NCBI GenBank assembly: GCA_003567475.1
Contig: PWZL01000021.1
Span: 1-64,000 of the forward strand
Origin: Gammaproteobacteria bacterium
Lineage (GTDB): Bacteria; Pseudomonadota; Gammaproteobacteria; Steroidobacterales; PWYM01
Length of the DNA: 64,000 nucleotides
Direction: 5' to 3'
A model generated the notes under the pieces. That model saw nothing but the letters and a program-made list of their open reading frames with translations. It ran no database searches and was not told the origin of the DNA. Shown piece by piece: positions 4,610-64,000 of this stretch (the first letter of the stretch is position 1; each line of letters starts with the position of its first letter). The translations under genes were made by a program, and so were the position numbers.

Positions 4610-4642
4610 GTCAGGTCACTCCGTCATCGATCCGCGCGACAC

Positions 4643-6118
4643 TCAGCCGCCCGGCACCGCCAGATAGGGCCGTAGCAGCTCGGCCAGCGGCCCCGCCAGG
4701 ACGAACAGCGCCAGACAACCGAGCGCCGTCAAGCTCAGCGGCACGACACACAGCAACGGCGCCTCACGCACGCCACCGGTCTGCTCGCGCTCCGGCGACG
4801 GCAGCAGAAATGCCGTCACCACCGGCGGAATCAGATATGCGATGTTCAGCAGCGTGCTGACGACCAGCGCCACCACGACCAGCGGGTAGCCGGAATCGTA
4901 GGCCCCCATGAACAGGTGCCACTTGCTCCAGACCCCACCCATTGGCGGCACTCCGATCACACACAGGGCGCCGATGAAAAAGGCCGCAAAAGTCACCGGC
5001 ATGCGCCGGCCGAGTCCGTGCATATCGCTGATGGCGGTTTTCTTGGTGGCGACATAGATCGCGCCAGCGCAGAAGAACAGCGTAATCTTGCCAAAAGCAT
5101 GCATCACGATGTGCATACCGCCGCCCAGCGCCGCGAACTCGCTGACCAGCATCGCAGCGGCGACGATATAGGACAGCTGACTGACCGTGGAATAGGCGAG
5201 CCGCGCCTTGAGGTTGTCCTGCTGCATCGCCACCAGGGAGGCGGCAAGCAGCGTGAATACGGCAATGTAGAGAATCAGGTCACTGGTGGCGAGTTCGCGC
5301 AGGTAATCCAGTCCGAACAGATAGACACTGACCTTGAGGACGGTAAACACACCAGCCTTGACCACGGCCACCGCATGCAACAGCGCCGAGACGGGCGTCG
5401 GCGCCACCATCGCCGCGGGCAACCAGCGATGGAAAGGCATCAACGCCGCCTTGCCGATGCCATACATGAACAACACCAGCAGAATGGCACCCACCGTCGG
5501 ATCGACGCGCCCTGCCATGATTCCGCCTGGCGTGAACTCCAGCGTGCCCGTCAGCCACCATGTGGCAATGATCGCGGGTAACAGGAGACCGACCGACGTG
5601 CCGAGCAACAGTCCGAGATAAGTCCGCGCGCCTTTCTTCGCGGCCTCATTGCCCTTGTGTGCCACCAGCGGGTAGGTGGACAGCGTCAGCACCTCGTAGA
5701 ACACGAACAGCGAGAACATGTTCGCCGAGAACGCGATACCCGTGGCGCTGAACAGCGCGATGCAGAAGAAGACGTGAAAGCGCGTGTGGTTGAGCTCCTT
5801 GGCGCCCCGCATGTAGCCGATGGCATACAGCGCGGTGATGATCCACAAACCTGACGCCAGCAATGCAAAGACCATCCCGAGCGGCTCGACCACGAAAGCG
5901 ATCTCAAGCCCCGGGAAGAGCTCGAGCAGAGTCGCCGAGGGACGCTGGCCTTCGCGCACACGCGGCAGCAGCTGCAGGACCACGCCGAACATCACGGCGG
6001 CCGTGGTCACCACCAGGCCATCACGCAGACCCGCCCAGCGGCTGGCAGCCATCAGGGCAAACATCCCGATGAGCGGAACCGCCAGCGCGAGATAGATCAG
6101 GGCGGCATCGCTTACCAT
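4643..6118 (-). CDS. Mrp antiporter D-type subunit, second copy
   Basis: 491 aa polytopic protein. The D-subunit core is clear: FVFYEVLTLSTYPLVAHKGN, the Lys-containing GIGKAALMPFHRWLPAAMVAPTP block, LKARLAYSTVSQLSYIVAAA and MHIVMHAFGKITLFFCAGAI. These carry the Glu, Lys and His residues used for ion translocation in this superfamily. It overlaps the end of the preceding D subunit by 7 bases. It acts with the neighbouring subunits as a secondary Na+(K+)/H+ antiporter in the inner membrane. Confidence 0.88.
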   Translation of the reverse strand: MVSDAALIYLALAVPLIGMFALMAASRWAGLRDGLVVTTAAVMFGVVLQLLPRVREGQRPSATLLELFPGLEIAFVVEPLGMVFALLASGLWIITALYAIGYMRGAKELNHTRFHVFFCIALFSATGIAFSANMFSLFVFYEVLTLSTYPLVAHKGNEAAKKGARTYLGLLLGTSVGLLLPAIIATWWLTGTLEFTPGGIMAGRVDPTVGAILLVLFMYGIGKAALMPFHRWLPAAMVAPTPVSALLHAVAVVKAGVFTVLKVSVYLFGLDYLRELATSDLILYIAVFTLLAASLVAMQQDNLKARLAYSTVSQLSYIVAAAMLVSEFAALGGGMHIVMHAFGKITLFFCAGAIYVATKKTAISDMHGLGRRMPVTFAAFFIGALCVIGVPPMGGVWSKWHLFMGAYDSGYPLVVVALVVSTLLNIAYLIPPVVTAFLLPSPEREQTGGVREAPLLCVVPLSLTALGCLALFVLAGPLAELLRPYLAVPGG

Positions 6119-7599
6119 GACTGCGGCACCCCCAGCAGCGCGTCGGCGGCATTACGGGCGGCGCCGATCGGGAACTGCGCCCACACACCGAACACAATGG
6201 TGGCACCCGTCAGCACCCACGTCGGCACCAGCAGTGCCAGCGGCGCCTCACGAACCTCGCGGGCATCCTCTGGTGGCGCCCGGAAATAGGCCGCCTCCAC
6301 CACTTTCCACATATAGACCGCAGCAATCAGCGAGGTGGCGAGCAACAGTGCGGCCACCGGCCAGAACCCCTCCATCAGCGCCGCCTGCAGGAGATACCAC
6401 TTGGTGACGAAGCCGGCGGTCAACGGCACACCGATCAGACTCAGACCGGCCACGACGAATGCCGCCATGGTCCAGGGCATACGCTCGGCGGCTCCGGCGA
6501 CCCGCGCCAGGGAGACGCCGCCAAGCCGATACACCAGGCAGCCTACAGCCATGAACAGCGCCGCCTTGGTGATGGCATGATTGAACAGGTGCAGCACCGA
6601 GGCCATCAGACCGAGGGCACTGGCGAAACTGATCCCCAGAATCATGTAGCCGACCTGGGCGACGCTGGAGTAGGCGAGCAACCGCTTGACGTCGTCCTGG
6701 AACACCGCGATCAGCGACGGAATGACGATACCGAGCAGGGCGAGCGGCATCAGCACCCAAGCCATGGACAATTCGACGAAGCTGAATTCGAAGCCGAACA
6801 CCGTGTAGACGAAGCGCAGCAGCACGTAGATGGCCACTTTGGTGGCGGTCGCGGACAGAAACACCGTCACCATCGAGGGAGCGTAGCTGTAGGCGTTCGG
6901 CAACCACAGGTGTAGCGGGAAAAGCGCCAGCTTGAGCGAAATGCCGACGGCAATGAACGCGAAGGCCGCCCGAATCGTACGGGTGTCGGTCACCTCCGGA
7001 AGTCGTGCAGCCAGATCGCCAAGATTCAGCGTGCCCGTCATGATGTACAGAAAGCCTATGCCGATCAGCAGGAAAGTCGTGCCAATCGTGCCCATGATCA
7101 GGTACTGGTAGGACGCCAATACCGCGCGGCGATCCCTGCCCATGGCGATCAGGGCATAGGAGGCGAGCGCGGAGATCTCGAAGAACACGAAGATATTGAA
7201 GGCGTCGGCGGTGATGGCGATGCCAAGCAGGCCGGCATTGGCCAGCAGGAACGCCGAATAGAACAGGCCGATGCGGTCGGCTGGAATCTCCTGGTCGACG
7301 CTGCGTCGCGCAAACGGCATGACCACCGCGCTGACCAGCCCGATGATCAGCAACACCCAGGCGTTGGCACCATCAACGCGGTACTCGATACCCCAGGGGG
7401 GCGCCCAGCCGCCCATCTCGTAGCGGATGACGCTGCCGTCCGACACCTGCAGCAGCAGCATCACGGCCACCGCGAAGGTGGCCCAGCAGGTCACCAGGGT
7501 CACGCCCCAGGCCAGTCGTGGCAGCCGGTTCAGCAGCATCACCAGGGGGGCGGCGGTCAGCGCGATCACCACCTGAAGTGCAGGCAGATGCTCGGTCAC
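6112..7599 (-). CDS. mrpD: Na+/H+ antiporter subunit MrpD
   Basis: 495 aa. This copy follows mrpC directly and best fits canonical MrpD: NIFVFFEISALASYALIAMG, GISLKLALFPLHLWLPNAYSYAPS, VKRLLAYSSVAQVGYMILG and LFNHAITKAALFMAVG. The conserved membrane Glu (FFEISAL) and Lys (SLKLALFPLH) of the proton pathway are present. MrpD is one of the two large proton-channel subunits of the hetero-oligomeric Mrp antiporter, which uses proton motive force to export Na+. It has 4- to 7-base overlaps on both sides. Confidence 0.9.
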   Translation of the reverse strand: MTEHLPALQVVIALTAAPLVMLLNRLPRLAWGVTLVTCWATFAVAVMLLLQVSDGSVIRYEMGGWAPPWGIEYRVDGANAWVLLIIGLVSAVVMPFARRSVDQEIPADRIGLFYSAFLLANAGLLGIAITADAFNIFVFFEISALASYALIAMGRDRRAVLASYQYLIMGTIGTTFLLIGIGFLYIMTGTLNLGDLAARLPEVTDTRTIRAAFAFIAVGISLKLALFPLHLWLPNAYSYAPSMVTVFLSATATKVAIYVLLRFVYTVFGFEFSFVELSMAWVLMPLALLGIVIPSLIAVFQDDVKRLLAYSSVAQVGYMILGISFASALGLMASVLHLFNHAITKAALFMAVGCLVYRLGGVSLARVAGAAERMPWTMAAFVVAGLSLIGVPLTAGFVTKWYLLQAALMEGFWPVAALLLATSLIAAVYMWKVVEAAYFRAPPEDAREVREAPLALLVPTWVLTGATIVFGVWAQFPIGAARNAADALLGVPQSW

Positions 7600-7949
7600 T
7601 GTTGTTCGTCCTGCTGATGGATGTCGTCTTCTTCAATGGAGCCGTAGGTCTCGTGGATTCTCACCACGAGCGCCAGGCCCATGGCCGTCAGCGCCACGCC
7701 CACGACGATGGCCGTGAGGATCAGCACGTGCGGCAGCGGATTGGCGTATTCCGTCACGCCCGGCAGGGCGATCGGTGCGGTACCGCCCTCACGCCAGGCG
7801 AGACTGATGAAAAAAATGAATGCCGAGGTCTGGAAGATGTTCAGCCCGACGATTTTCTTCACCAGATTGCCCTGAGCAATCACGATATAGAAACCGATCA
7901 TCATCAGCACGACGACGATCCAGTAGTTGTACAGGCCGAGCAGCGTCAT
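7596..7949 (-). CDS. mrpC: Na+/H+ antiporter subunit MrpC (NuoK-like)
   Basis: 117 aa with three predicted helices. The diagnostic block GFYIVIAQGNLVKKIVGLNIFQTSAFIFF is the NuoK/MrpC signature. A second conserved part, PLPHVLILTAIVVGVALTAMGLALVVRI, is where most MrpC proteins carry PHALVLTAIVI. The C-terminal tail is acidic and Gln-rich. It lies between mrpB and mrpD with 4-base overlaps, as in other Mrp operons. Confidence 0.9.
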   Translation of the reverse strand: MTLLGLYNYWIVVVLMMIGFYIVIAQGNLVKKIVGLNIFQTSAFIFFISLAWREGGTAPIALPGVTEYANPLPHVLILTAIVVGVALTAMGLALVVRIHETYGSIEEDDIHQQDEQQ

Positions 7950-8368
7950 GCGTCCGGCCTCCGCCCGGCAAAGGAGTAGAACAGCGACAGGCCTACTGCT
8001 GCCACGGTAATCCCGACGCCCAATTCGATGCCGATGATGCCGAAGGTTTCACCCGCCTGGTCGTTGGGCAGCAGGACCTTGTATTCGAGGAAATTGCCGC
8101 CGAGAAACAGGCTCGCAAAACCGAACGCGGCGAACAGCAATACGCCGATCGCAGAAAGCGCATGCGCTGCTTCCGGCGGGATCGCTTTCTGGGCGGCTTC
8201 CAGGCCATACAGCAGCGTATAGACGACGAAGGCGGCGGTGAACACGATGCCGGCCTGGAAGCCACCACCGGGACTGTATTCCCCGTGAAACTGCACATAG
8301 AACGCGAATATCAGGATGATAGGGATCATCAGGCCACTGATGACCCTGAGCACGATGTACCGGTTCAT
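7946..8368 (-). CDS. mrpB: Na+/H+ antiporter subunit MrpB
   Basis: 140 aa, the MnhB/MrpB domain. The hallmark FHGEYSPGGGFQAGIVFTAAFVVYTLL near residues 28-54 is fully conserved, and four hydrophobic helices follow one another. MrpB is a small membrane subunit required for assembly and activity of the antiporter. Overlaps of 4 bases with the genes on both sides mark it as part of one coupled transcript. Confidence 0.9.
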   Translation of the reverse strand: MNRYIVLRVISGLMIPIILIFAFYVQFHGEYSPGGGFQAGIVFTAAFVVYTLLYGLEAAQKAIPPEAAHALSAIGVLLFAAFGFASLFLGGNFLEYKVLLPNDQAGETFGIIGIELGVGITVAAVGLSLFYSFAGRRPDA

Positions 8369-8886
8369 GGCCCCTCGTCCCCTGCGCCCCGACGCGCAGC
8401 GTCACGCGATTTACGCCCGCGCACCGAGCCACTGCCAAGCACCAGCAGCACGCCCACAGCGGCGGCGAACACCACCACGGCCTCCCCGAGCGTATCGATA
8501 CCGCGGTAGCTGGCCAGTACCGAGGTCACCATGTTCGGAATACCGATTTCCTCGGGCGACTCCTGGGTGAAACGCGGCGAAAGGTGGACATGCGCCGGCG
8601 CCTCCGGATCGCCGAACCTTGGCATGTCGAGGGTAGCGTAGATCAACGCGGCACCCGTGATCGCCACCACCACCAGAGCCAGCAGGTTGTGACGCATGCT
8701 GTGCCGGCGCTCCTCCCGGGTGGTCAGCGCGATGGTGCCCAACATCAGGATGACCATCAGGCCGGCGCCGACGGCCGCCTCGGTGAGGGCGACGTCCGGG
8801 GCATCCATCAGGACGAACAGCACGGCCACGACCAGACTGTAGATTCCCGTCAGCATGGTCACGGCCAGCAGGTTGCGGATACGCAC
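8365..8886 (-). CDS. MrpA C-terminal/MrpB N-terminal-like subunit (DUF4040-type)
   Basis: At least 173 aa from the GTG at 8886. The segment LFVLMDAPDVALTEAAVGAG is the conserved core of the small domain that forms the C-terminal part of MrpA in single-chain versions; a transmembrane MnhB-like tail (YRGIDTLGEAVVVFAAAVGV) follows. The frame stays open upstream of 8886 and encodes a further hydrophobic helix (ALIDIVLLTFLAIIAIAI) normally present in the family, but no ATG, GTG or TTG exists there. A GGGAGG site sits 6 bases before an ATC codon at 8946, so the true start may be a non-AUG codon at 8946 (ATC) or 8937 (CTG). Confidence 0.82.
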   Translation of the reverse strand: MRIRNLLAVTMLTGIYSLVVAVLFVLMDAPDVALTEAAVGAGLMVILMLGTIALTTREERRHSMRHNLLALVVVAITGAALIYATLDMPRFGDPEAPAHVHLSPRFTQESPEEIGIPNMVTSVLASYRGIDTLGEAVVVFAAAVGVLLVLGSGSVRGRKSRDAARRGAGDEGP

Positions 8887-8933
8887 GATGGCGATCGCGA
8901 TGATCGCGAGAAAAGTGAGCAGAACGATGTCGA

Positions 8934-9263
8934 TCAGCGCTTCGATGACGCACCTCCCGGCGCGCGGCGCCAGGGCTCAAGATGATCATGCCGCGCGGCC
9001 TTGGCCAGCGCATGGGCGGCAGTCGGGCCCGTGAACAATAGAAAGGCGAGCGTGAACAGAAGCTTCGCCGCCACCGGTATGCTGTCGGCCTGCAGCGTCA
9101 ACCCCAGCAGGATCAGGATCGAACACAGCGTGTCGGTCAGACCTGCGGCCTGGATACGCGAGTAGAAATCCGGCATCCGCATGAGACCGAGACCACCAAT
9201 CACCAGCAGCGTGGAGCCGGCCAGCAGCAGCACCCAGCTCAGGATGTCCAGCACGAGAGCCAT
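8934..9263 (-). CDS. mrpG: Na+/H+ antiporter subunit MrpG
   Basis: 109 aa with three predicted membrane helices. The conserved LVIGGLGLMRMPDFYSRIQAAGLTDTLCS block (about residues 21-49) is the PhaG/MnhG signature, followed by LLFTGPTAAHALAKAA. The C-terminal end overlaps the probable start region of the next subunit. It shares one base with the end of mrpF. Structural subunit of the Mrp antiporter. Confidence 0.9.
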   Translation of the reverse strand: MALVLDILSWVLLLAGSTLLVIGGLGLMRMPDFYSRIQAAGLTDTLCSILILLGLTLQADSIPVAAKLLFTLAFLLFTGPTAAHALAKAARHDHLEPWRRAPGGASSKR

Positions 9264-9562
9264 CAGCGCTCCCCCCCGCTCTGCTCGGTCTCTTCAGCAG
9301 GATCACCCACCAGGCTGCCGGATTCGAACACGCGCAAGACGGCGATGATGCCGATGTAGTTCAGCAGGGCGTAGACGATGGCGATGTCGATGAATTCCGG
9401 TCGCCCGGTAATGAACCCGACGACGGCGATCATCAGTACGGTCTTGGTCCCCACGACATTGACGGCGAGGATGCGGTCATGAATCGTCGGGCCGACGAAC
9501 GCCCGGACCAGCGCCATGCCCAGGGTGATGAGAATCGCGAGAGCCACCGCAAAAAACATCAC
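9263..9562 (-). CDS. mrpF: Na+/H+ antiporter subunit MrpF
   Basis: 99 aa with three helices. The family block ALVRAFVGPTIHDRILAVNVVGTKTVLMI (residues 17-45) and the RPEFIDIAIVYALLNYIG block with the conserved Asp in a helix are both present. MrpF has been proposed to take part in Na+ or cholate efflux and is essential for antiport in characterised systems. Overlaps mrpE by 4 bases. Confidence 0.9.
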   Translation of the reverse strand: MMFFAVALAILITLGMALVRAFVGPTIHDRILAVNVVGTKTVLMIAVVGFITGRPEFIDIAIVYALLNYIGIIAVLRVFESGSLVGDPAEETEQSGGER

Positions 9563-10044
9563 GACAGCCCCTCTTCGAAGCGCAGAACGCGGCGGTTCAT
9601 TTCACCGGTTTCCAGGTCATCGACGACTTCAGGCAGCAGGGCGTAATACTCGATGTAATCCTCGGTGACCTGCAGCGTGACGGTCCCCGGGGTCAGCGTG
9701 ATGGAATTGGCCATGATGGCCCGCCCCACATGGGTGCGCTGCAGGGTGTGCAGACGGGCGATGCGCGGGTCGATGGCATCGCGTCCGGCGAGGATCCGGC
9801 GCGCGACCAGCACATTGGCGAGCACGATCTGCCCCAGCAGCCATGGCCAGTAGCGCAGCGCCGCCGGCAACATGTGAAAGACTTCCGTGTCGCGCCCCAG
9901 CAGATCCATGCGCGCAACCAGCCAGACCGTCACGATCACGGACGCCACGCCCAGGGACAGGATGAGCGGATAGGTCCACATCCCCGAGAACAGCAGCCAG
10001 ACGATGGCCAGCAGCACTGTCAGACTGATCACGTACCTGGACAC
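9559..10044 (-). CDS. mrpE: Na+/H+ antiporter subunit MrpE
   Basis: 161 aa when started at the GTG at 10044, which has a GGGAG site 7 bases upstream and gives the usual MrpE length (about 160 aa). An open frame continues to 10188, but that extension is Arg/Cys-rich and unlike the family. Two hydrophobic helices at the N-terminus are followed by a cytoplasmic domain with the characteristic MANSITLTPGTVTLQVTEDYIEYYAL. First gene of the minus-strand mrp operon. The promoter must lie between 10045 and about 10350, sharing the divergent region with ectR. Confidence 0.88.
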   Translation of the reverse strand: MSRYVISLTVLLAIVWLLFSGMWTYPLILSLGVASVIVTVWLVARMDLLGRDTEVFHMLPAALRYWPWLLGQIVLANVLVARRILAGRDAIDPRIARLHTLQRTHVGRAIMANSITLTPGTVTLQVTEDYIEYYALLPEVVDDLETGEMNRRVLRFEEGLS

Positions 10045-11077: not shown

Positions 11078-12280
11078 ATGGACATCATCGTTCAGAAGTA
11101 CGGCGGGTCATCGCTCGCCGAAGACGCCAAGTTGTGCGCTGTTGCGCACCGGATCGCCGAGACACGCCGCAACGGCACAGGGCTCGTGGTGGTGGTTTCT
11201 GCCATGGGCAACACCACCAGCCGGTTGCTCGCACATGCCGGTCGCCTCAACGCGACACCGGAACATCGCGAACTGGACATGCTGCTGGCCGCGGGCGAGC
11301 AGAAGTCCGCCTCCCTGCTGTCTCTGGCCCTGCACGACCTCGGGATCGAAGCGGTGGCCCTGACCGGCGCACAGGCGGGCGTGCGCACCTGCAACGCCCA
11401 CCTCAATGCGCGCATTCGCAGTGTCGACCCGACGCGGATGCGCAGCGAGGTCGCCGCGGGACGGGTGGTGGTCGTCGCCGGCTTTCAGGGCGCCGGCCCG
11501 ACGGGCGACATCACCACACTGGGCCGGGGCGGCTCCGACACCACGGCCGTGGCCATTGCTGCTGCCGTCGGCGCCAGCCGCTGCGAGATTTATTCGGACG
11601 TCGACGGCGTCTACACCGCCGATCCGCGGGTGGTGCCGGAGGCAAGCCGACTGCGCATGCTCAGCCTGACCGAGATGAAGACACTGGCCCATCACGGCTC
11701 CGGGGTGCTCAACGAGCGGGCCGTCGACTATGCCATCGAGCATGGCGTCACCATCCACGCGCGCCGCGCCCATGGCGATGGCGGCCAGACGATTGTCCGG
11801 ACGGAACAGGGCACCGGCGGCCGCACCCGCATCGCCGGAATCGCCACTCACGGTGAGCTGCTGCGGATCGATTTCACCGAGCTCGCCGATCGTGCCGCGT
11901 TGAGTGAACTGCTCGACGAATACGACAGCTTCGCCCCGGAGCTGGCCCTGGGGGGGCGTGGCCTGTACCTGCTGCCCACCGATCAGCTGGCCGACGTCCC
12001 GGGCCTGTGCGCGGCCATTGAGGCTCGCTGCGGCGATGGCGTGCGGGTACACGGGACGGTGGCGTCGGTGTCCGCCGTGGGCCGCCAGGCCGGACGCGAC
12101 CCGAGCACTCTGGCCTTCGCGCAGCAGCTGCTGCAGGCGCAGGACATCACGGTGCATCACGCGTTCGCCACGGAACACGCTGTCACCTGCCTGGTGGCCG
12201 AAGAGATGCGTGCGACGGCGGCGCAGACCTTCCATACTGGCTTCCGTATCGCCGATACCGGAGTGGCCGATGTCGCCTGA
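11078..12280 (+). CDS. ask: Ectoine-cluster aspartokinase (Ask_Ect)
   Basis: 400 aa. ATP-dependent phosphorylation of L-aspartate, the entry step towards aspartate semialdehyde and diaminobutyrate. The kinase motif KYGGSS is at residues 7-12; the substrate block GRGGSDTTAVAIA and the nearby YSDVDGVYTADPR complete the catalytic domain; two degenerate ACT-like repeats fill the C-terminus. The ATG at 11078 is chosen because it begins the family sequence MDIIVQKYGG. Its end overlaps ectA by 11 bases, so they are coupled. Ectoine-linked aspartokinases are thought to escape lysine/threonine feedback. Here it stands before ectA; in most described clusters it follows ectC or ectD. Confidence 0.88.
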   Translation: MDIIVQKYGGSSLAEDAKLCAVAHRIAETRRNGTGLVVVVSAMGNTTSRLLAHAGRLNATPEHRELDMLLAAGEQKSASLLSLALHDLGIEAVALTGAQAGVRTCNAHLNARIRSVDPTRMRSEVAAGRVVVVAGFQGAGPTGDITTLGRGGSDTTAVAIAAAVGASRCEIYSDVDGVYTADPRVVPEASRLRMLSLTEMKTLAHHGSGVLNERAVDYAIEHGVTIHARRAHGDGGQTIVRTEQGTGGRTRIAGIATHGELLRIDFTELADRAALSELLDEYDSFAPELALGGRGLYLLPTDQLADVPGLCAAIEARCGDGVRVHGTVASVSAVGRQAGRDPSTLAFAQQLLQAQDITVHHAFATEHAVTCLVAEEMRATAAQTFHTGFRIADTGVADVA

Positions 12281-12809
12281 AGCGCTGACCCGCGCCACTG
12301 CATCGGCCATCCGCTTTCGTGCTGCGCGGCCCGAAGATGGCGCCGCCATGTGGCGACTCGTTCAAGACATGGGTGGACTCGAACTCAACACCGCGTATTT
12401 CTACGTGCTGTTCTGCATCGACTTCGCTGAAACCTGTGTCGTGGCCGAAGCGGACAACGGAGAGCTCGCCGGCTTCGTGCTCGGCCACCGGCCTCCCGCG
12501 AGGCCGGATACCGTATTCGTCTGGCAGGTTGGCGTGGCGCCCTGGATGCGCCGCCAGGGTCTGGCAGGGCGACTGCTCGAGGCGCTGCTGCGCCAGCAGG
12601 CACGCCCCGCGCGCTGGCTCGAGGCTACCGTGAGCCCCGACAACACTGCCTCGATGCAGCTGTTCCGCGCCCTCGCCCGCGCCCACGACGCGCGGTGCGA
12701 GGAAAGCGATTTCATGGACGCCGGACTGTTTCCCGGCGACCACGCGGCCGAGCGGTTGTTCCGCATCGGCCCACTGAACCCATCATCAGCACAGGGAAAA
12801 ACAGTATGA
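12270..12809 (+). CDS. ectA: L-2,4-diaminobutyrate N-acetyltransferase
   Basis: 179 aa GNAT-fold enzyme that acetylates diaminobutyrate with acetyl-CoA, the second step of ectoine synthesis. The start at 12270 gives MSPEALTRATASAIRFRAAR and overlaps the end of the kinase gene. Typical EctA parts are GLELNTAYFYVLFCIDFAETCVVAE and the acetyl-CoA site VGVAPWMRRQGLAGRLLEAL, followed by the ATVSPDNTASMQLFRALAR block. It lies between aspartokinase and ectB with a 4-base overlap (ATGA) to the latter. Confidence 0.93.
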   Translation: MSPEALTRATASAIRFRAARPEDGAAMWRLVQDMGGLELNTAYFYVLFCIDFAETCVVAEADNGELAGFVLGHRPPARPDTVFVWQVGVAPWMRRQGLAGRLLEALLRQQARPARWLEATVSPDNTASMQLFRALARAHDARCEESDFMDAGLFPGDHAAERLFRIGPLNPSSAQGKTV

Positions 12810-14086
12810 GCATTCCAACCATCGAACGCCTCGAATCGGCAGTCCGCGGCTATGTGCGCAGTTTCCCGTGTGTATTCACACACGCGAAAGGCGCGCGGAT
12901 GACCAGTGAGGAGGGTCGCGAATACATCGACTTCTTCGCCGGCGCAGGCGTGATGAACTATGGCCACAATCATCCGGCACTGAAGACAGCGCTGCTCGAG
13001 TACCTCGCCGAAGATCACATCATCCACAGCCTGGACATGGCGACTGCGGCCAAGATCCGCTTCCTCGAGCGCTTCGAGGAGGTCATCCTCAAGCCGCGCG
13101 GCCTGGACTACCGCGTCCAGTTCCCCGGACCCACGGGCACCAACGCTGTCGAGGCGGCGCTGAAACTCGCGCGCAAAGTCACCGGCCGTGAGCGCATCCT
13201 GTCCTTCACCAATGCCTTCCACGGCATGACGTTGGGCGCACTCGCTGTGACGGGTAACTCGTTCAAGCGCGCCGGTGCCGGCGTACCCCTGTCGCATGCC
13301 ACGATGATGCCATTCGACAGCTACCTTGATGAGGGCGACGAACAGAGCCTCAAGCTGCTGGAGGCGATGCTCGGAGACGAGGGCTCGGGCATGGACAAGC
13401 CCGCCGCCGCCATCATCGAGACGGTTCAGGCTGAAGGCGGGGTGAACGTCGCCCGGATGGAATGGTTGCGGGAACTCGCCGCAATCCTCAAACGCCACGA
13501 TGTGCTGCTGATCGTGGACGATATCCAGGTCGGCTGCGGCCGCACCGGACCGTTCTTCAGCTTCGAACCGGCGGGTATCCAGCCAGACATCATCTGCCTG
13601 TCGAAGTCCTTGAGCGGCTTTGGTCTGCCTCTGGCTGTCACGCTCATGCGCCCAGAGCTCGACGTCTGGGCCCCGGGTGAGCATAACGGGACCTTCCGCG
13701 GCCACAACCCCGCCTTCGTCACGGCCACAGCGGCGCTGGGCTTCTGGACCGATGACCAGCTCGAGCGCGAAGTCGGGCGTAAGGCGACGGTGATCGAACA
13801 GCGTCTTCACGCACTGGTCGAACGCTTGCCGGTCGAGGCGACCCACCGGGGCCGTGGAATGATCCAGGGCATCGAATTCAGCGATCGCACGCTCGCCGCA
13901 GAGGCCTCACAAGCGGCATTCCAGCGCGGCCTGATCATCGAAACCGCCGGTATCGACGACCAGGTGTTGAAACTGCTGCCGCCGTTGATGATTGCCGACG
14001 CGGATCTCGCCGCAGGCCTCGATATCGTCGATGCCGCGGTCACTGCGGTGGCCCGACGGGCAGCGCCTGGCCGTAAGGTCGCCTGA
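12806..14086 (+). CDS. ectB: Diaminobutyrate-2-oxoglutarate transaminase
   Basis: 426 aa, class-III PLP aminotransferase that converts aspartate semialdehyde to L-2,4-diaminobutyrate using glutamate. The PLP-binding lysine is in IICLSKSLSGFGLPLA; the cofactor-contacting Asp is in LLIVDDIQVGCGRTG; the substrate block FTNAFHGMTLGALAVTGN is typical of EctB. The start ATG overlaps the ectA stop (ATGA) and has an AGGG site 9 bases upstream. Normal EctB length. Confidence 0.94.
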   Translation: MSIPTIERLESAVRGYVRSFPCVFTHAKGARMTSEEGREYIDFFAGAGVMNYGHNHPALKTALLEYLAEDHIIHSLDMATAAKIRFLERFEEVILKPRGLDYRVQFPGPTGTNAVEAALKLARKVTGRERILSFTNAFHGMTLGALAVTGNSFKRAGAGVPLSHATMMPFDSYLDEGDEQSLKLLEAMLGDEGSGMDKPAAAIIETVQAEGGVNVARMEWLRELAAILKRHDVLLIVDDIQVGCGRTGPFFSFEPAGIQPDIICLSKSLSGFGLPLAVTLMRPELDVWAPGEHNGTFRGHNPAFVTATAALGFWTDDQLEREVGRKATVIEQRLHALVERLPVEATHRGRGMIQGIEFSDRTLAAEASQAAFQRGLIIETAGIDDQVLKLLPPLMIADADLAAGLDIVDAAVTAVARRAAPGRKVA

Positions 14087-14134
14087 GCATCGCCCCGACG
14101 TCACCTGATCAAACCACTCCAGGGAAGCCATGAC

Positions 14135-14545
14135 ATGATCGTAAGGACACTGAACGGAACGCTCGGCACCGAGCGCGAAATCGACACGCCAGGCTGGACC
14201 AGCCGACGACTGCTGCTGAAGAGCGAGAACATGGGTTTCTCGCTGCACGACACGCTGATCAAGCCTGGCGCCGAACTGCCCATGTGCTATCGCAATCACC
14301 TCGAGGCGGTCTACTGCATCGAGGGCGAAGGCGAAGTGGAGACTGTCGCCGACGGTGTCCGCCACCAGATCAAGGCGGGCACCGTCTACGCACTGGACCA
14401 GCACGACGAACACATCCTGCGGGCGCGCACGCAGATGCGCATGGTCTGCGTGTTCAACCCGCCGATTACCGGCCGGGAGGTGCACGGCGAAGACGGCGCC
14501 TACCCGCTGATCGAGGATGACGAGCCGGTGACCCGCGTCTCCTGA
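14135..14545 (+). CDS. ectC: L-ectoine synthase
   Basis: 136 aa cupin that cyclises N-gamma-acetyl-diaminobutyrate to ectoine. Diagnostic segments are [16 protein letters not shown] at the N-terminus, [13 protein letters not shown], and [15 protein letters not shown] with the cupin metal-site Glu. AGGGAAG lies 7 bases before the ATG at 14135. A minimal ORF of two codons (ATG ACA TGA from 14130) overlaps the start, which may be accidental. No ectD hydroxylase follows, so the window encodes ectoine and not 5-hydroxyectoine synthesis. Confidence 0.94.
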
Positions 14546-56071: not shown

Positions 56072-59000
56072 GTGATCGAAGAGCCCTCTACCGTGCCCGC
56101 GGTGCTGCCGCCGAAGGCGTCCGTCAATCCCCTGCGCACGCGCGCGGACTGGCAGTCCGCGCGTACGGCCTGCGAGACCGACCCCGGCCGCTACCATGGC
56201 GACCTCGCCGCTCACGAGCTGCACTGGTTCGATCCCGCGACAGGCAGCCACGGCGCCTGGCTGACGCTCGACGCCGGCGGCCACTGGTCAGGCTGGGACG
56301 CGGTCAGCGGGGCTGCCGTCACCGCCGATCATGCCGCTGACTGGCGCCCGTGGCGCTGTGGCCTGGACGACACCGAGGCGCCCTGGTATCGCTGGTTCGT
56401 CGATGCCCGCACCAATGCCTGTTTCAACGAAGTCGACCGGCATGTGCTCGCAGGACATGGCGAAGAGCCCGCGCTGCTGGTGGAAGGCGATCGCTGGGAC
56501 CAGTCGCGTGCCGAGGGTCGCGGCGGCCCGGTGGTGTCCTACCCGGTCTCCCGACGCCGGCTGCTGGTGGAGGTTGCCAGCGCCGCGCTGGTGATGCAGC
56601 GCTTGGGCTTGCGGCGGGGTGACCGCATCGCCCTGAACCTGCCGAATATTCCTCAGCAGGTGGTCTGGACTGAGGCGGCCAAGCGCCTGGGGATCATCTA
56701 CACGCCGGTGTTCGGCGGTTTCTCCGACAAGACGCTGGCCGATCGCATCCACGATGCCCGTGCCCGCGTGGTGATCACCGCTGACGGCGGTTACCGCAAC
56801 GCCCAGATCGTGCCGTTCAAGGCCGTCTACACGGATCCCGCGCTGGACCAGTATCTGCCAGGCGAGCGTGCGCTCACCGTGGTCGCCGAGGCGCTGGCAA
56901 CCCTCGGACTGGGTGCCGAAGCCGTCGAGCGCATTATCGCCTGTGCGGCCGATGCGGTGGCTGGCGAAATCACCGTCGAGCGCCGGGATGTCATGCGTGG
57001 TGTGGGCGTGGCCCTGGGCGAACTGAGCGAGCGCGCCGATCTCGACGCCGCGGCCGCCGGGCGTATCCGCACGACCCTGGCCCGCGCGCTGGTCGATGCC
57101 GGTGCCGACGTCGAGCATGTGATCGTGGTCCGCCACACCGGCCAGGAGGACCTGCCCTGGCGCGAGGGGCGCGATCTCTGGGCTCACGAACTCCTCGCCG
57201 AGGCCACTGAGACACTGCTCGAGGCCGCCCGCGGCGCCGGCATCGAGGTGGCGGACGCCGCCGGCCTGCTTGCCCTGCCGGATGCCGACTGCGTCCGTGC
57301 CGTCTGGGCCGCCTGTCCGCCAGCGCCGCTCGACGCCGAATATCCGCTGTTCTTCATCTACACCTCCGGCTCCACCGGCAAGCCCAAAGGCGTCGTGCAC
57401 GTGCACGGCGGCTACACGGCCGGTATCGCACACAGCATGCGCATCAGCTTCGATGCCCGGCCGGGCGATGTCATCTATGTGGTGGCCGACCCCGGCTGGA
57501 TCACCGGCCAGAGCTACATGCTCTCCGCGGCACTGACTACCCGGGTGACCAGTGTCCTGGCCGAGGGTGCGCCGGTATTCCCCTCCGCGGGGCGCTTCGC
57601 CTCGATCATCGAGCGCTATGGCGTGACCATCTTCAAGGCCGGCGTCACGTTCCTCAAGACCGTGATGACCGATCCGCAGAACGTCGAGGACGTGCGCCTC
57701 TATGACCTCTCCTCGCTGCGGGTGGCGACGTTCTGTGCCGAGCCCACCTCACCGGCGGTGCAGCAGTTCGCGATGGAGCTGATGACCCCCTGGTACATCA
57801 ACTCCTACTGGGCCACCGAGCACGGCGGCATCGTCTGGACACATTTCTATGGCAACGGCGACTTCCCGCTGCGCGCCGACGCCCACACCTGGCCCCTGCC
57901 GTGGGTGATGGGCGACGTCTGGCTGCCGGATGGCCCGCCCGCCGCTGACGGCCGGCTGCCCTGGCGCCGTGCCGACGATGGTGAGAAAGGCGAGATCGTG
58001 ATCCATGCGCCCTACCCTTACCTCGCCCGCACCATCTGGGGCGACGCCGAGCGCTTCGTGGTCGAGGATGACCGCGTAAGCCCCGGCTGGCGCGGCGACT
58101 TCGCCCGTTACCGCGACACCTACTGGGCGCGCTGGCAGGACACCTGGGCCTATACCCAGGGCGATTTCGCCATCCGCCATGCCGATGGCAGCTTTTCGCT
58201 GCACGGGCGCAGCGATGATGTGATCAACGTCTCCGGCCATCGCCTGGGCACCGAGGAGATCGAGGGCGCGATCCTGCGTGACAAGCAGCTCAATCCGGGC
58301 TCGCCGGTCGGTAACGTGATCGTGGTCGGCGCGCCGCACCGCGAGAAGGGCCTGACGCCGCTGGCTTTCGTGACGCCGGCACCGGGCCGACGCCTTACGG
58401 TCGATGACCGCCGACGGCTGATCGAGTTGGTGCGCCAGGAGAAAGGCGCCGTGGCCGTCCCCGAGGACTTCCTGGAGGTGCCGGCGTTCCCCGAAACGCG
58501 CAGCGGGAAATACCTGCGTCGCATGGTGCGCGCGCTGGTCGAAGGCCAATCCCCGGGCGACACCACCACGCTACGCAACCCCGAATCGATTCCCCCGCTC
58601 GAACGGGCGATCGGCGAGTGGATCGCGCGCCAGAAGATCCGCGAGACACAGCGCCTGCTGGAGCGTGGCCGCTACTTCCATATCCACTACCACCCGGTGC
58701 CGCTCGCAGGCCACGAAGACTCACGGCTGGCGCTGGTGACGGTCAGCAATCCGCCGGTCAACGCGCTCAACGAGCGCGCGCTCGACGAACTCGTCACCGT
58801 GGTCGAGCACCTGTCGCGCCGGCCCGAGGTGGTGGCGGTGATCTTCACCGGCGAGGGCACCTCCTCGTTCGTGGCCGGCGCAGACATTCGCCAGCTGCTC
58901 GAAGACGTGCACACGCTCGACGAGGCCATCACGCTGCCCAACGTCGCCCACCTGGCCTTCCGCAGCATCGAGCGCATGGACAAGCCCTGCATCGCCGCGA

Positions 59001-61549
59001 TCAACGGCGTGGCGCTCGGCGGCGGCATGGAATTCGCGCTGGCCTGTCACCTGCGCCTGGCCGAACCGGTGGCGAGCTTCGGCCAGCCGGAGATCCGCCT
59101 GAACCTGCTGCCCGGCTACGGCGGCACGCAGCGGCTGACCCGGCTGCTGGCCGACCGCGACGGGCTGACGGGCCTGGTGGGGGCCGTGGAGCTGCTGATG
59201 GGCGGGCGCAGTGTCGAGGCCCCGGAGGCGCTGCGGCTCGGACTGATCGACGGCATCGCCGAGGGCGGTGATGATGTCGTGAGCCTCGCGGCCGGCATGG
59301 TCTACGACTGGCTGCGCGACCCCGCAGACAGCGCCCTGGGTCAGCGCTGGCAGCGCGTACGGGCGCAGCGGCTGGCCTGGGAGCAGCCCGGCCGCCTCAA
59401 TCTCGAGGCCGCCCTGGCCAGCGAGCAGGTGGCCGCCCTGCTCGCCCAGGCCACGGCAGTGGGACGCAGCGCCGCGGCCACGCGGGTGCTCGAGGCTGTA
59501 CGCACCGGCTGGGAACAGGGACTGGCCGCCGGCCTCAAGCACGAAGCCGCGCTGTTCGCTGCGGCGGTGATCGACCCCGAGGGCGGCAAGGCCGGTATCC
59601 GCGCCTTCTTCGACCGGCGCAGCCCGCCGCTGCCCGTGCGCTTCGGCCAGCCGCGCTCACTCGAGGAGGTCCCGGCGCTGATCGCCCGAGGCGAGCTGCT
59701 GCCGGTCGGCGCGCCCTTCTATCCGGGCCTGACCCCCCTGCCACGCTGGCAGATCGGCCAGGGCGTGGTGCGCGACGCGGCCACCGGTGCGCCCCGCCAT
59801 GGCGACCCCGCCGAGGTCGAGTGCGAAGTCATCGTGCCGGTGGAACGCCCGGAGGCCGACGAGGTGCTGCTGTACATCCTCGCCTCCGAGGTCAATTTCA
59901 ACGACATCTGGGCCATCCAGGGCATCCCCGTATCCCCGTTCGACAGTCACGACCGCGACGTGCAGGTCACCGGCTCAGGCGGTGTGGCCCTGATCGCGGC
60001 CCTCGGCGATTCGGTGAAGCGCGAGGGACGGCTGCGCGTGGGTGACCTGGTGTCGATCTACTCCGGCCAGTCGACCCTGCTCTCGCCCTTCGCCGGCCGC
60101 GACCCGATGTCGGCAGATTTCCGCATCCAGGGCTACGAGACCCCGGACGGCAGCCACCAGCAGTTCCTCCGGGTGCAGGCACCCCAGTGCCATCCGCTGC
60201 CCCCGGATGTCCCGCTGGAGGCGGCCGGCTCCTACATCCTCAATCTCGGCACCGTTGTCCGCGCGCTCTTCACCACGCTGGGTATCGAGCCGGGTCGGCG
60301 GATGTTCGTCGAAGGCGCGGCCACGGGAACCGGCCTGGAGGCGCTCAAGACGGCGGCGGCGCAGGGACTGCGGGTCACCGGCATGGTCTCCAGCCCCGCC
60401 CGCGCGAACGTCGTACGGCAGTACGGCGCGGTCGGGGCGATCGACCGACGCGACCCGGCGCTGGCCGATTGCTTCCGGCCGGTTCCGGGCGAGCGTGAGG
60501 CGATTCTGGCCTGGGAGCGCGCCGGTGAGCCGCTGCTCGAGGCCTTCCGGACCCAGCATGGCGGCCAGCTCGCCGACTATGTGGTCTCGCACGCCGGCGA
60601 GCAGGCGTTCCCGCGCAGCTTCCAGCTGCTCGACCAGGGCGGCTGCCTGGCCTTTTACGGCGCCTCCAGCGGCTATCACTTCACCTTTGCCGGCAAACCC
60701 GGCGCCGTCCGTGTGGAGGAGATGCTGCAGCGCGCCCGGCTGCGGGCCGGCGAGGCCGTGCTGGTGTACTACGGCCCGGAGCTCGACGCCGAGGCCCTGG
60801 TCGACCCCCACGGTATCGAGGCGATCGAGGCCGCGGCCGCGCGCGGGGCGCGGGTGGCCGTGGTCTGCTACAGCGAGGCTCAGCGGGAGTTCGTGCGTTC
60901 GCTGGGCTTCGGTGACCGGCTCGCCGGGGTGGTTTCGATCGAAGAGCTGTCCCGCCGGGCCACGATGGACTTCGAGTGGCCGGACACCATGCCCGGCCTG
61001 CCGGAGGTGCGCGACGATACGGCAGCCTTCCGCGAAGCCGTGCGGGCCTTCCAGGAGCGCACCATCAAGCCGCTGGGTCAGGCGGTTGGCAAGCTGCTGC
61101 GCTCGGCCGACAACCCGCGTGGGGCGCCCGAACTGATCATCGAGCGCGCCGGTCACGATGCACTGGCCGTCTCGACCTCGCTGGTCCAGCCGTTCACCGG
61201 CCGGGTGGTGTACGCCGAAGACATGCACGCACGCCGCTACAGCTTCTACGCCCCCCAGGTCTGGACCCGCCAGCGGAAGATTCTGCTACCCACCTGCTCG
61301 ATTCTTGGCACGCACCTGTGCAACCCCTACGAGGTCACGCAGATGAATCGCATGCTGGCGAGCGGCCAGCTGGAGATCACGCCGCCGACCCTGGTCGACT
61401 GGCACGAGTTGCCGGAAGCCCACCAGGCGATGTGGGAGAACCGTCACGCCGGCGCGACCTATGTGGTCAATCACGCACTGCCGGCCGCGGGCCTGCGCAG
61501 TCGCGACGAACTTTTTGAAGCTTGGGCAGCGGGAGGTCAGGGAACATGA
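56072..61549 (+). CDS. pcs: Propionyl-CoA synthase (trifunctional, 3-hydroxypropionate pathway)
   Basis: 1825 aa, the same size and domain order as the 201-kDa enzyme of Chloroflexus aurantiacus. Residues 1 to about 860 are a CoA ligase: YTSGSTGKPKGVVHVHGG near 429, GDVIYVVADPGWITGQS, and the catalytic Lys in ETRSGKYLRRM near 808. Residues of about 870-1200 are an enoyl-CoA hydratase with AAINGVALGGGMEFALACH near 976 (oxyanion hole). Residues of about 1250-1825 are an NADPH-dependent enoyl-CoA reductase of the MDR type (SEVNFNDIWAIQG; EGAATGTGLEALKTAA near 1413; YVVSHAGE). Together they turn 3-hydroxypropionate into propionyl-CoA inside one chamber. The GTG start is chosen because the N-terminal VNPLRTRADWQ region is collinear with the known enzyme. 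It overlaps mcr by 4 bases. Confidence 0.95.
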   Translation: MIEEPSTVPAVLPPKASVNPLRTRADWQSARTACETDPGRYHGDLAAHELHWFDPATGSHGAWLTLDAGGHWSGWDAVSGAAVTADHAADWRPWRCGLDDTEAPWYRWFVDARTNACFNEVDRHVLAGHGEEPALLVEGDRWDQSRAEGRGGPVVSYPVSRRRLLVEVASAALVMQRLGLRRGDRIALNLPNIPQQVVWTEAAKRLGIIYTPVFGGFSDKTLADRIHDARARVVITADGGYRNAQIVPFKAVYTDPALDQYLPGERALTVVAEALATLGLGAEAVERIIACAADAVAGEITVERRDVMRGVGVALGELSERADLDAAAAGRIRTTLARALVDAGADVEHVIVVRHTGQEDLPWREGRDLWAHELLAEATETLLEAARGAGIEVADAAGLLALPDADCVRAVWAACPPAPLDAEYPLFFIYTSGSTGKPKGVVHVHGGYTAGIAHSMRISFDARPGDVIYVVADPGWITGQSYMLSAALTTRVTSVLAEGAPVFPSAGRFASIIERYGVTIFKAGVTFLKTVMTDPQNVEDVRLYDLSSLRVATFCAEPTSPAVQQFAMELMTPWYINSYWATEHGGIVWTHFYGNGDFPLRADAHTWPLPWVMGDVWLPDGPPAADGRLPWRRADDGEKGEIVIHAPYPYLARTIWGDAERFVVEDDRVSPGWRGDFARYRDTYWARWQDTWAYTQGDFAIRHADGSFSLHGRSDDVINVSGHRLGTEEIEGAILRDKQLNPGSPVGNVIVVGAPHREKGLTPLAFVTPAPGRRLTVDDRRRLIELVRQEKGAVAVPEDFLEVPAFPETRSGKYLRRMVRALVEGQSPGDTTTLRNPESIPPLERAIGEWIARQKIRETQRLLERGRYFHIHYHPVPLAGHEDSRLALVTVSNPPVNALNERALDELVTVVEHLSRRPEVVAVIFTGEGTSSFVAGADIRQLLEDVHTLDEAITLPNVAHLAFRSIERMDKPCIAAINGVALGGGMEFALACHLRLAEPVASFGQPEIRLNLLPGYGGTQRLTRLLADRDGLTGLVGAVELLMGGRSVEAPEALRLGLIDGIAEGGDDVVSLAAGMVYDWLRDPADSALGQRWQRVRAQRLAWEQPGRLNLEAALASEQVAALLAQATAVGRSAAATRVLEAVRTGWEQGLAAGLKHEAALFAAAVIDPEGGKAGIRAFFDRRSPPLPVRFGQPRSLEEVPALIARGELLPVGAPFYPGLTPLPRWQIGQGVVRDAATGAPRHGDPAEVECEVIVPVERPEADEVLLYILASEVNFNDIWAIQGIPVSPFDSHDRDVQVTGSGGVALIAALGDSVKREGRLRVGDLVSIYSGQSTLLSPFAGRDPMSADFRIQGYETPDGSHQQFLRVQAPQCHPLPPDVPLEAAGSYILNLGTVVRALFTTLGIEPGRRMFVEGAATGTGLEALKTAAAQGLRVTGMVSSPARANVVRQYGAVGAIDRRDPALADCFRPVPGEREAILAWERAGEPLLEAFRTQHGGQLADYVVSHAGEQAFPRSFQLLDQGGCLAFYGASSGYHFTFAGKPGAVRVEEMLQRARLRAGEAVLVYYGPELDAEALVDPHGIEAIEAAAARGARVAVVCYSEAQREFVRSLGFGDRLAGVVSIEELSRRATMDFEWPDTMPGLPEVRDDTAAFREAVRAFQERTIKPLGQAVGKLLRSADNPRGAPELIIERAGHDALAVSTSLVQPFTGRVVYAEDMHARRYSFYAPQVWTRQRKILLPTCSILGTHLCNPYEVTQMNRMLASGQLEITPPTLVDWHELPEAHQAMWENRHAGATYVVNHALPAAGLRSRDELFEAWAAGGQGT

Positions 61550-64000
61550 CAGGCAGCCAGGACACAGGCGGCGATCGCCGCCGGACATCTCGCGGGCGAC
61601 TGGCGGGCAAGATCGCCCTGGTCACCGGTGCAGGCGGCAACATCGGCCGGGTGGTCTGCGAACGCTTCCTGAAGGAAGGCGCCACCGTGGTCATGACCGG
61701 GCGCACGCGCGAGAAACTGGAGGCGCTGCGCAGCGACCTTCGGGAACGCCTGCGGGTGCCCGCGGCGCGCATGCCGGTGGTGGTCATCGACGGCGCCGAA
61801 CCCGGGCAGGTGCGCGTCGGCATCGAGAACATCATCGCCACGCACGGGCGAATCGACGTACTGGTCAACAACGCCGGCTCAGCCGGCCCGAAGTGCCCGC
61901 TGGCCGACCTGCCGATCACGCCGGACGACCTTGCGGCATTGAAGGCCGCCGGCATCGAGGAGCACGAGACCGTGCCCATGGCGGCGCGCAATTTGCTGGG
62001 CATCGCCTGGAACTTCGTACGCGCGGCGGCCCCGCACCTGCCGCCCGGCGCCAGCGTGATCAACGTCTCCACGATTTTCTCGCGAACCCAGTACTACGGC
62101 CGGGCCGCCTACGTCGTGCCCAAGGCGGCACTGAACACGTTCTCGCGCCAGCTGGCGCTAGAACTCGGGCCGAAAGGCGTCCGCGTCAACACCGTGTTTC
62201 CGGGACCGATCGCCTCCGAGCGCATCCGGACCGTGTTCGCCGCCATGGACACGCTGCGCAGCCAGCCCCAGGGCACGACGGCCGACGAGTTTCTCGGGCT
62301 GATGACCCTGGCACGGCCCCAGGACAGCGCGGCACCCGCCTACGGCTTCCCGACCATCGATGACGTGGCCAATACCCTGGTGTTCCTCGCCAGCGATGAG
62401 TCGGCCGCCATGAACGGCCACAACATCGAGGTCACCCATGGCATGCAGGTGCGCCAGGAGTCGCGCAGCACGGCCATCTCGCGACCGGAACTGCGCACCG
62501 TCGACGGCGTGGGCGTCCGGATCCTGCTGGCAGCCGGCGATCAGGTGAGCGACGCCCTCACCGTGGCCCGGGTGCAGGCCGACTGCGGCGCCGAGGTGCT
62601 GCTTGGGCTGGGCTCTGAGGAATCGGTCCGCGCGGCCCGCGAGGCTCTGGAGGACACGGGCCGAGACCAGCGGATCCGCACGGTATTGCTGGACCGGACC
62701 CGGCCCGACACCGTCAGGGCAGTGTTCGAGGCGTTATGCGACGCCGGGGAGGCGCTGCATGGGGCGATCATCATGCCGGCCTACGGGGCCTGGCGCTTCC
62801 GCGGCACCCTGGTCGGGGACAGTGACGCCGACGTGGCCGCGTTCCTCGACGGCGAGCTGGTCGGCAGCCTGGTCATCGCCCGTGAACTGACGCGGTTCTG
62901 GAAGCGGATCGGAGACGCGCTGCGGCTGGCGCCGAGCGTGGTGTTCGTCTCCAATGGCGACGACGGCCACGGCAATGTCTATGCCGACATCCTGCGGGCG
63001 GCCACCGAGGAACTCTGCCGCATCTGGCGCAACGAAACCGAAGTGCAACAGCAGGCGGGCGAGCGCCGGTTCCAGGAATGGTCCAACCAGGTGATCCGCT
63101 GGCCCAACCGCGAAGGCGAGGAAGTGCCCTTCGCCGCCGGGCAGGCGGCCAGACTGCTGTATACCCGGCGGCGGATCCGGCAGGTGAACCTCTACCTGCC
63201 GGCCTCGATTGCCGAGGCGACCGGTTCACGGCGCGCGATCTTCGGCTGGATGGAAAGCCTGATGGGCCTGCACCTCGGCAAGGTCGCGCTGATCACCGGC
63301 GGCTCGGCAGGCATCGGCGGACAGCTTGGCCGGCTGCTGGCCATTGGCGGGGCACGGGTCATGCTGGTGGCGCGCCGCGCCGATCAGCTGGCCGAGATGC
63401 GTGCGTCCATCGTGCGGGAACTCGAAGACATCGGCTATTACGCGGCCGAAGAACGGGTCCAGGTGATGGCCGACATTGATGTCGCCGACGAGGCGGCGCT
63501 GGCCCGCTCGGTGGCGCAGACCATGGCGAAGTTCGGGCGTCTCGACTATCTGATCAACAACGCCGGCATTGCCGGCGCCGAGCAGATGGTCGTCGATATG
63601 GAGGTGGACGACTGGCGCAACACCCTGAATGCCAATCTGGTCTCGAACTTCTCACTGATCGAGAAAGTCGTGCCGATCATGAAGGCGCAGGGCAGTGGCT
63701 ACATTCTGAACGTCTCTTCCTATTTCGGCGGTGAAAAATACATCGCCGTGCCCTATCCCAACCGGGCCGATTACGCCGTCTCCAAGGCCGGCCAGCGCGC
63801 CCTGACCGAAAACCTCGCGCGCTTCGTCGGCCCGGAAATCCAGATCAATGCCATCGCTCCCGGCCCGGTCGACGGCGACCGGCTGCGGGGTACGGGCGGC
63901 AAGCCGGGGCTGTTCGAGCGTCGCGGGCGGCTGATCCTCGAGAACCGGCGTCTCAATGCCCTGTACGCCGCAGTCATCGAGGCCCTGAAGGCCGGCCATG
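61546..64000 (+). CDS. mcr: Malonyl-CoA reductase (bifunctional), 3' end outside the window
   Basis: First 818 codons of a protein expected to have about 1220 residues; there is no stop before base 64000. Two SDR units are seen. The N-terminal unit has the cofactor loop TGAGGNIGR near 27 and catalytic Tyr189 and Lys193 (YVVPK), matching the half that reduces malonate semialdehyde to 3-hydroxypropionate. The C-terminal unit begins GLHLGKVALITGGSAGIGGQLGRLLA near 577 and has Tyr743 and Lys747 (YAVSK) after VSSYFGGEKYIAVPYPNRAD, the half that reduces malonyl-CoA to malonate semialdehyde. The ATG overlaps the pcs stop (ATGA). The sequence is collinear with Chloroflexus Mcr. NADPH use is family knowledge. 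Confidence 0.95.
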   Translation, partial: MTGSQDTGGDRRRTSRGRLAGKIALVTGAGGNIGRVVCERFLKEGATVVMTGRTREKLEALRSDLRERLRVPAARMPVVVIDGAEPGQVRVGIENIIATHGRIDVLVNNAGSAGPKCPLADLPITPDDLAALKAAGIEEHETVPMAARNLLGIAWNFVRAAAPHLPPGASVINVSTIFSRTQYYGRAAYVVPKAALNTFSRQLALELGPKGVRVNTVFPGPIASERIRTVFAAMDTLRSQPQGTTADEFLGLMTLARPQDSAAPAYGFPTIDDVANTLVFLASDESAAMNGHNIEVTHGMQVRQESRSTAISRPELRTVDGVGVRILLAAGDQVSDALTVARVQADCGAEVLLGLGSEESVRAAREALEDTGRDQRIRTVLLDRTRPDTVRAVFEALCDAGEALHGAIIMPAYGAWRFRGTLVGDSDADVAAFLDGELVGSLVIARELTRFWKRIGDALRLAPSVVFVSNGDDGHGNVYADILRAATEELCRIWRNETEVQQQAGERRFQEWSNQVIRWPNREGEEVPFAAGQAARLLYTRRRIRQVNLYLPASIAEATGSRRAIFGWMESLMGLHLGKVALITGGSAGIGGQLGRLLAIGGARVMLVARRADQLAEMRASIVRELEDIGYYAAEERVQVMADIDVADEAALARSVAQTMAKFGRLDYLINNAGIAGAEQMVVDMEVDDWRNTLNANLVSNFSLIEKVVPIMKAQGSGYILNVSSYFGGEKYIAVPYPNRADYAVSKAGQRALTENLARFVGPEIQINAIAPGPVDGDRLRGTGGKPGLFERRGRLILENRRLNALYAAVIEALKAGH

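Follow-up and report, generated by a model that had tools for sequence, protein, structure and literature searches.

Propionyl-CoA synthase and malonyl-CoA reductase genes in a predicted phototrophic gammaproteobacterium and their possible connection to the methylcitrate cycle

The pcs-mcr gene pair described here is best explained as a module that probably converts acetyl-CoA to propionyl-CoA in a photoheterotrophic purple gammaproteobacterium and delivers its product to the methylcitrate cycle. The function we predict is co-assimilation, not autotrophy. Such pairs are already known in Proteobacteria; the novelty lies in the host and in the probable link to the methylcitrate cycle. The host genome (G000; 3.06 Mb, a 98.4% complete draft) contains both enzymes in intact form, a reaction centre, a complete prpBCD set, AccA/AccD and isocitrate lyase, and searches of it found neither RuBisCO nor Mct. 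Absence calls rest on HMM family searches of the draft genome. The DNA analysed (the window) covers bases 1-64000 of a contig that is 89,029 bases long, and mcr was read beyond the window on the same contig.

The pcs-mcr gene pair

The pcs gene is a single uninterrupted frame of 1825 codons with a GTG start (Table 1). The phmmer match of its product to Erythrobacter PCS (PDB 6eqo) spans residues 23-1822 with 2453 bits, and the Pfam domains follow in the order AMP-binding, ECH_1 and ADH_zinc_N, i.e. one chain of ~1800 aa carries ligase, enoyl-CoA hydratase and MDR reductase. The mcr product and full-length MCR of the Roseiflexus/Chloroflexus type (8hjw, 8hi4) match from one end to the other; the product thus comprises four SDR domains, which is the norm for the bifunctional malonyl-CoA reductase class (PMC10470521). 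The earlier note had claimed a full-length pcs overlapping a "two-SDR" mcr through ATGA at 56072-64000. Overlap and coordinates proved correct, and both genes are full length. Two SDR domains, however, describes only the part of mcr visible in the window; the gene runs on to 65241, and the class has four.

Table 1. Features of the contig (positions 1-64000 form the window).
Feature	Position	Strand	Description
Mrp-type Na+/H+ antiporter set	2683-10032	-	identified by eye from translations
ectoine genes	about 11078-14545	+	identified by eye from translations
pcs	56072-61549	+	trifunctional propionyl-CoA synthase, 1825 aa: ligase, enoyl-CoA hydratase, acrylyl-CoA reductase domains
ATGA overlap	61546-61549	+	mcr start codon overlaps pcs stop codon; sequence ACATGACAGG
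mcr	61546-65241 (61546-64000 inside window)	+	bifunctional malonyl-CoA reductase, 1231 aa
NiFe hydrogenase set	79051-86630 (beyond window)		predicted

The ATGA overlap suggests translational coupling of the two genes. An identical -4 overlap is present in two sister species, deposited as DLM2.Bin61 (RECU01000042; G003) and CSSed162cmB_305 (SKYU01000081; G004), both labelled Gammaproteobacteria, and in G082, an unrelated gammaproteobacterial carrier. PCS identity to the two sister species is 94% and 90%, and gene order and overlap recur in both; the arrangement is therefore no assembly accident.

Judged by alignment to the PCS of NAP1 and Chloroflexus, the window PCS keeps the ligase Lys in TRSGK, the crotonase Glu pair (GGGMEF, GQPEI) and the reductase cofactor motif GAATGTG. 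The catalytic residues of MCR have been named for the Roseiflexus enzyme (RfxMCR numbering, PMC10470521). Conserved among these are Thr165-Tyr178-Lys182 of SDR1 and, in SDR3/ED, Ser731, Tyr743, Arg746, Tyr749 and Lys753 as well as the equivalents of Arg785, Leu795 and Arg799. The equivalent of Arg1164 is presumably an Arg close to the C terminus that is invariant and stands at the expected place. Loss of catalytic residues in the part of mcr outside the window had been considered a possible objection; none of the SDR1 and SDR3/ED residues compared is lost, and with the residues checked intact the two proteins can be regarded as genuine Pcs and Mcr. Pairwise dN/dS values against the two sister species were 0.07-0.08 for pcs and 0.03-0.05 for mcr, with similar values for neighbouring genes, indicating that both genes are under purifying selection.

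A predicted phototroph, probably from soda lakes

Judging from the bin names of G003 and G004, the genus probably comes from soda lakes in Canada and Siberia, for both of which sampling programmes have been published. PufL/PufM were detected in all five sampled species. In G000, pufL and pufM are accompanied by pufC, antenna genes, pucC and carotenoid genes, i.e. by the PufL, PufM, PufC and antenna complement of a type II anoxygenic phototroph, and from this gene content the host is predicted to be a purple phototroph with a type II reaction centre. A search for photosystem genes, as proposed when the pair was first noticed, was thus positive. The RuBisCO large subunit was found in none of the eight genomes searched, and on this ground a Calvin cycle is rejected. 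The initial description of a gammaproteobacterial host with ectoine and Mrp genes also stands, both sets being recognisable by eye from the translations.

About 14 kb downstream of mcr lies a predicted NiFe hydrogenase set, syntenic in G003. It resembles the four-subunit NAD(P)-linked sulfhydrogenase type and is accompanied by a protease gene, hypA and hypF.

Enzymes of the 3-hydroxypropionate bi-cycle

The first half of the 3-hydroxypropionate bi-cycle has two diagnostic enzymes, Mcr and Pcs, and the earlier note had counted a full bi-cycle among the possibilities, suggesting searches for propionyl-CoA carboxylase (PCC), methylmalonyl-CoA mutase (MCM), mcl and mct. MCM was indeed found in G000, in one operon with epimerase and MeaB and all over curated cut-offs, so that the epimerase and mutase steps are represented. 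The other searches of G000 yielded no classical PCC, clear Mcl or Mct. For Mct, the best score was 107 bits versus a cut-off of 725, whereas Chloroflexus genomes reached 871 in the same search. The sole HpcH/CitE-like lyase gave 150 bits with CitE, 143 with CLYBL and 140 with malyl-CoA lyase; this CitE/RipC/CLYBL-like protein reaches none of the curated cut-offs set for the models it matched and is shared by species that lack pcs. The three PF01039 proteins are AccA, AccD and an MCC-type subunit, the latter scoring 801 bits with MCC beta, at most 253 with classical PCC beta and 794 with PDB 9tps, which was deposited as PCC beta. In view of the Mct, Mcl and PCC results, we reject a full autotrophic bi-cycle for G000, considering it extremely improbable despite the presence of Mcr and Pcs.

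These data also bear on a reading in which the module is the same, but propionyl-CoA is carboxylated and converted via MCM to succinyl-CoA, an assimilation branch that the first half of the bi-cycle also uses. With MCM, epimerase and MeaB encoded in G000, this methylmalonyl-CoA route could operate provided that propionyl-CoA is a substrate of the MCC-type carboxylase; the genome encodes a biotin carboxylase pair of MCC type, and 9tps scores nearly as high as MCC against the G000 subunit. We nevertheless consider the succinyl-CoA route unlikely: none of the three PF01039 matches is a classical PCC beta, a stand-alone MCM was not found in G003 (100% complete) or G004, which encode the fused IcmF only, and no MCM was found in G082, although all of these carry pcs-mcr. 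Carbon co-assimilation through both carboxylases, as initially envisaged, is thus supported for acetyl-CoA carboxylase (AccA and AccD present) and doubtful for PCC.

The methylcitrate cycle as probable fate of propionyl-CoA

In G000, prpB, prpC and prpD form one operon, with each protein scoring over its curated cut-off. A propionyl-CoA-consuming pathway, whose absence the earlier note had listed as a refuting condition, is thereby complete, which makes the methylcitrate cycle the best-supported fate of propionyl-CoA. The prpBCD operon and pcs-mcr reside on different contigs. Both are kept in G003 and G004. G082 (100% complete) combines an overlapping pcs-mcr pair with a reaction centre, bchY/Z and prpB-prpC; PrpD and an HpcH lyase were not found in this genome.

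From these gene sets we infer the direction of flux, the joining of Mcr-Pcs with the methylcitrate module, the source of reductant and the conditions of use. According to our proposal, acetyl-CoA carboxylase would form malonyl-CoA from acetyl-CoA and bicarbonate, Mcr would reduce it to 3-hydroxypropionate with 2 NADPH, and Pcs would activate, dehydrate and reduce this intermediate to propionyl-CoA at the expense of 1 NADPH and the cleavage of ATP to AMP. Propionyl-CoA would most likely enter the methylcitrate cycle (PrpC, PrpD, PrpB) to yield pyruvate and succinate, and from succinate oxaloacetate would be regenerated with the return of two reducing pairs. The net conversion would be acetyl-CoA + CO2 + 2[H] -> pyruvate, which would amount to a pyruvate synthase reaction that tolerates oxygen and could serve in building C3/C4 skeletons and in absorbing photosynthetic reductant. 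The driving reductant may be derived from light or from hydrogen, the latter via the predicted NAD(P)-linked NiFe hydrogenase with its hyp genes (79-86.6 kb of the contig). The Acc, Mcr, Pcs and methylcitrate steps are established reactions of these families, and three NADPH are spent per propionyl-CoA.

This NADPH demand would also suit a module acting mainly as a valve for excess NADPH/acetyl-CoA, or providing propionyl-CoA for the synthesis of odd-chain lipids or polyhydroxyalkanoate, and gaining little carbon overall. Such a role is in line with the type II reaction centre in 44 of 49 PCS carrier genomes and with the predicted hydrogenase, also present in G003; given a complete propionyl-CoA catabolic operon, however, carbon need not stop at propionyl-CoA, and we regard this role as quite improbable. 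Directly upstream of prpBCD are an acrylyl-CoA-reductase-family gene and an enoyl-CoA hydratase gene (L154:4897-6691), an arrangement conserved in G003; the reductase-family gene scores over the family cut-off and under the AcuI cut-off. The position of these two genes could mean that the pcs-mcr pair uses external 3-hydroxypropionate or acrylate, with Mcr being incidental or detoxifying malonate semialdehyde, and some haloarchaeal PCS genes indeed lack an mcr within about 9-10 kb. That mcr overlaps pcs and is conserved at the low dN/dS given above, and that enzymes of the Mcr class are known to reduce malonyl-CoA (PMC10470521), makes use of external substrates very improbable.

We thus favour the route from Mcr-Pcs into the methylcitrate cycle for the window genus. 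For gammaproteobacterial phototrophs in general, the idea that Mcr-Pcs joined to this cycle forms an oxygen-tolerant, CO2-incorporating route from acetyl-CoA to pyruvate is advanced more tentatively, as a possibility falling just short of probable. Two gammaproteobacterial lineages whose pcs-mcr copies differ greatly both combine the pair with prp genes, PrpD being missing in one. A demonstrated natural Mcr-Pcs-methylcitrate pathway was not found in the literature searched; a 2021 review lists propionyl-CoA-forming reactions plus the methylcitrate pathway among possible anaplerotic routes in purple bacteria (PMC8307300). As a counterpoint, PrpB and PrpD also occur in G002, a species of the genus without pcs, and are therefore not tied to the pcs-mcr module. 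Moreover, PrpB exceeded the cut-off in only 5 of 49 other carriers and, apart from Rhodopila, in none of the alphaproteobacterial carriers searched. A general rule that pcs-mcr goes with the methylcitrate cycle is hence rejected, and the link is lineage-specific. Isocitrate lyase is encoded in G000 and likewise in G082; in G000 the pcs-mcr module is therefore not the sole anaplerotic route.

Distribution and phylogeny

Within the genus, pcs is present in three of the five sampled species (G000, G003 and G004) and was not found in G001 (94% complete) or G002 (87% complete). The other sampled genomes of the order gave partial ligase- or hydratase-like matches only and no pcs-mcr pair; of 369 genomes sampled evenly across the class, only 4 had a PCS-type C-terminal part. 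Among 80 PCS loci from named genomes, 60 had mcr nearby, in 55 cases directly downstream on the same strand; in the remaining five (four Chloroflexota and one Parachlamydiaceae bin) mcr was upstream of pcs. With reaction centres as frequent among carriers as stated above, pcs-mcr looks rather like an accessory that type II phototrophs use to add CO2 to acetyl-CoA and absorb reductant.

Trees of Pcs and Mcr, another check proposed in the earlier note, group the window proteins with proteobacterial enzymes and not with those of Chloroflexus. In these quick trees, both copies fall within a proteobacterial clade (including Gemmatimonadota in the case of PCS) apart from Chloroflexota, and the nearest MCR neighbours are other gammaproteobacterial and proteobacterial bins; the positions of the G082 and G277/G161 proteins are unsure owing to long branches. 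Transfer from Chloroflexus is thus not supported. Neither is a recent acquisition by the species of G000, as codon-position GC and synonymous divergence resemble those of neighbouring genes; the pair looks vertically inherited within the genus. Acquisition as a unit, which tight coupling had been taken to indicate, is plausible but not specific, since pcs-mcr adjacency is the rule in Pseudomonadota.

Several more distant homologues were seen. Haloarchaea encode full-length PCS homologues (CP095391, CP095395, NZ_CP095398, NZ_CP099392, NZ_CP084883) with about 55-57% identity over the whole protein, several of them on large plasmids; those annotated are termed "AMP-binding protein" only. None of the haloarchaeal loci examined had an mcr within the distance mentioned, and in Natrinema zhouii the PCS gene is located beside MCM, B12-binding and MeaB genes. 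G277 and G161, from another gammaproteobacterial family, encode divergent PCS-like proteins without adjacent mcr or a reaction centre, and the G161 protein has lost the GAATGTG motif. The contig of the Parachlamydiaceae bin carries PCS with a divergent MCR upstream; a reaction centre was not found in that genome, and a binning error may be involved.

Comparison with known systems

Aerobic anoxygenic phototrophs (Erythrobacter sp. NAP1, Porphyrobacter/Erythrobacter, Blastomonas, Novosphingobium) share with the window genus the two full-length enzymes, mcr directly downstream and the type II reaction centre. Their enzymes share about 60-64% (PCS) and 49-56% (MCR) identity with those of the window, but pcs and mcr lie up to about 200 bp apart instead of overlapping, and the hosts lack PrpB over the cut-off. 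Among the nearest relatives are WB4_1_1000, RE-18aug17-100, Loc090721-4m, Burkholderiales LacPavin, Rhizobacter GL140 and Gemmatimonadaceae ES-bin-51 (PCS 63-68%, MCR 54-64%), proteobacterial and Gemmatimonadota carriers in which a reaction centre is present and, in some, PrpB.

Common to the Chloroflexaceae bi-cycle and our genus is the Mcr and Pcs segment from acetyl-CoA to propionyl-CoA. G000 differs in having no Mct, clear Mcl or classical PCC and in the proteobacterial affiliation of its proteins; in Chloroflexota loci, mcr is upstream of pcs or not nearby, whereas it is downstream in the window genus. A 2022 survey proposed the bi-cycle in other Gammaproteobacteria from Mct plus pathway completeness (PMC9802188), a test that the window genus would fail. 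Three of the nearest-relative carriers named above (gammaproteobacterial G423, Rhizobacter G427 and Gemmatimonadaceae G428), all with pcs and a reaction centre, have Mct homologues of 672-710 bits, just below the cut-off of 725 and without counterpart in the window genus. In line with that survey, they are candidates for a fuller bi-cycle.

Ca. Kentron is likewise a gammaproteobacterium using part of the bi-cycle for assimilation, yet it represents the mirror image, lacking Mcr and Pcs and keeping most other steps (PMC6593406). The synthetic Lcm module (PMC11599936) shares the net aim (acetyl-CoA + CO2 to pyruvate, oxygen-tolerant) and the start with acetyl-CoA carboxylation, Mcr and the Pcs ligase domain. 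It then employs a B12 mutase on 3-hydroxypropionyl-CoA, whereas the natural candidate here would use Pcs and the methylcitrate cycle; methylcitrate is not mentioned in the text of that paper.

Significance

The "diagnostic" bi-cycle genes pcs and mcr are separated here from the bi-cycle itself, and genome surveys taking pcs plus mcr as a sign of autotrophy would misclassify this host. An oxygen-tolerant reaction of the pyruvate synthase kind is a goal of synthetic biology (PMC11599936). If the connection to the methylcitrate cycle is true, the organism would possess a natural oxygen-tolerant counterpart of pyruvate synthase in a bicarbonate-rich habitat.
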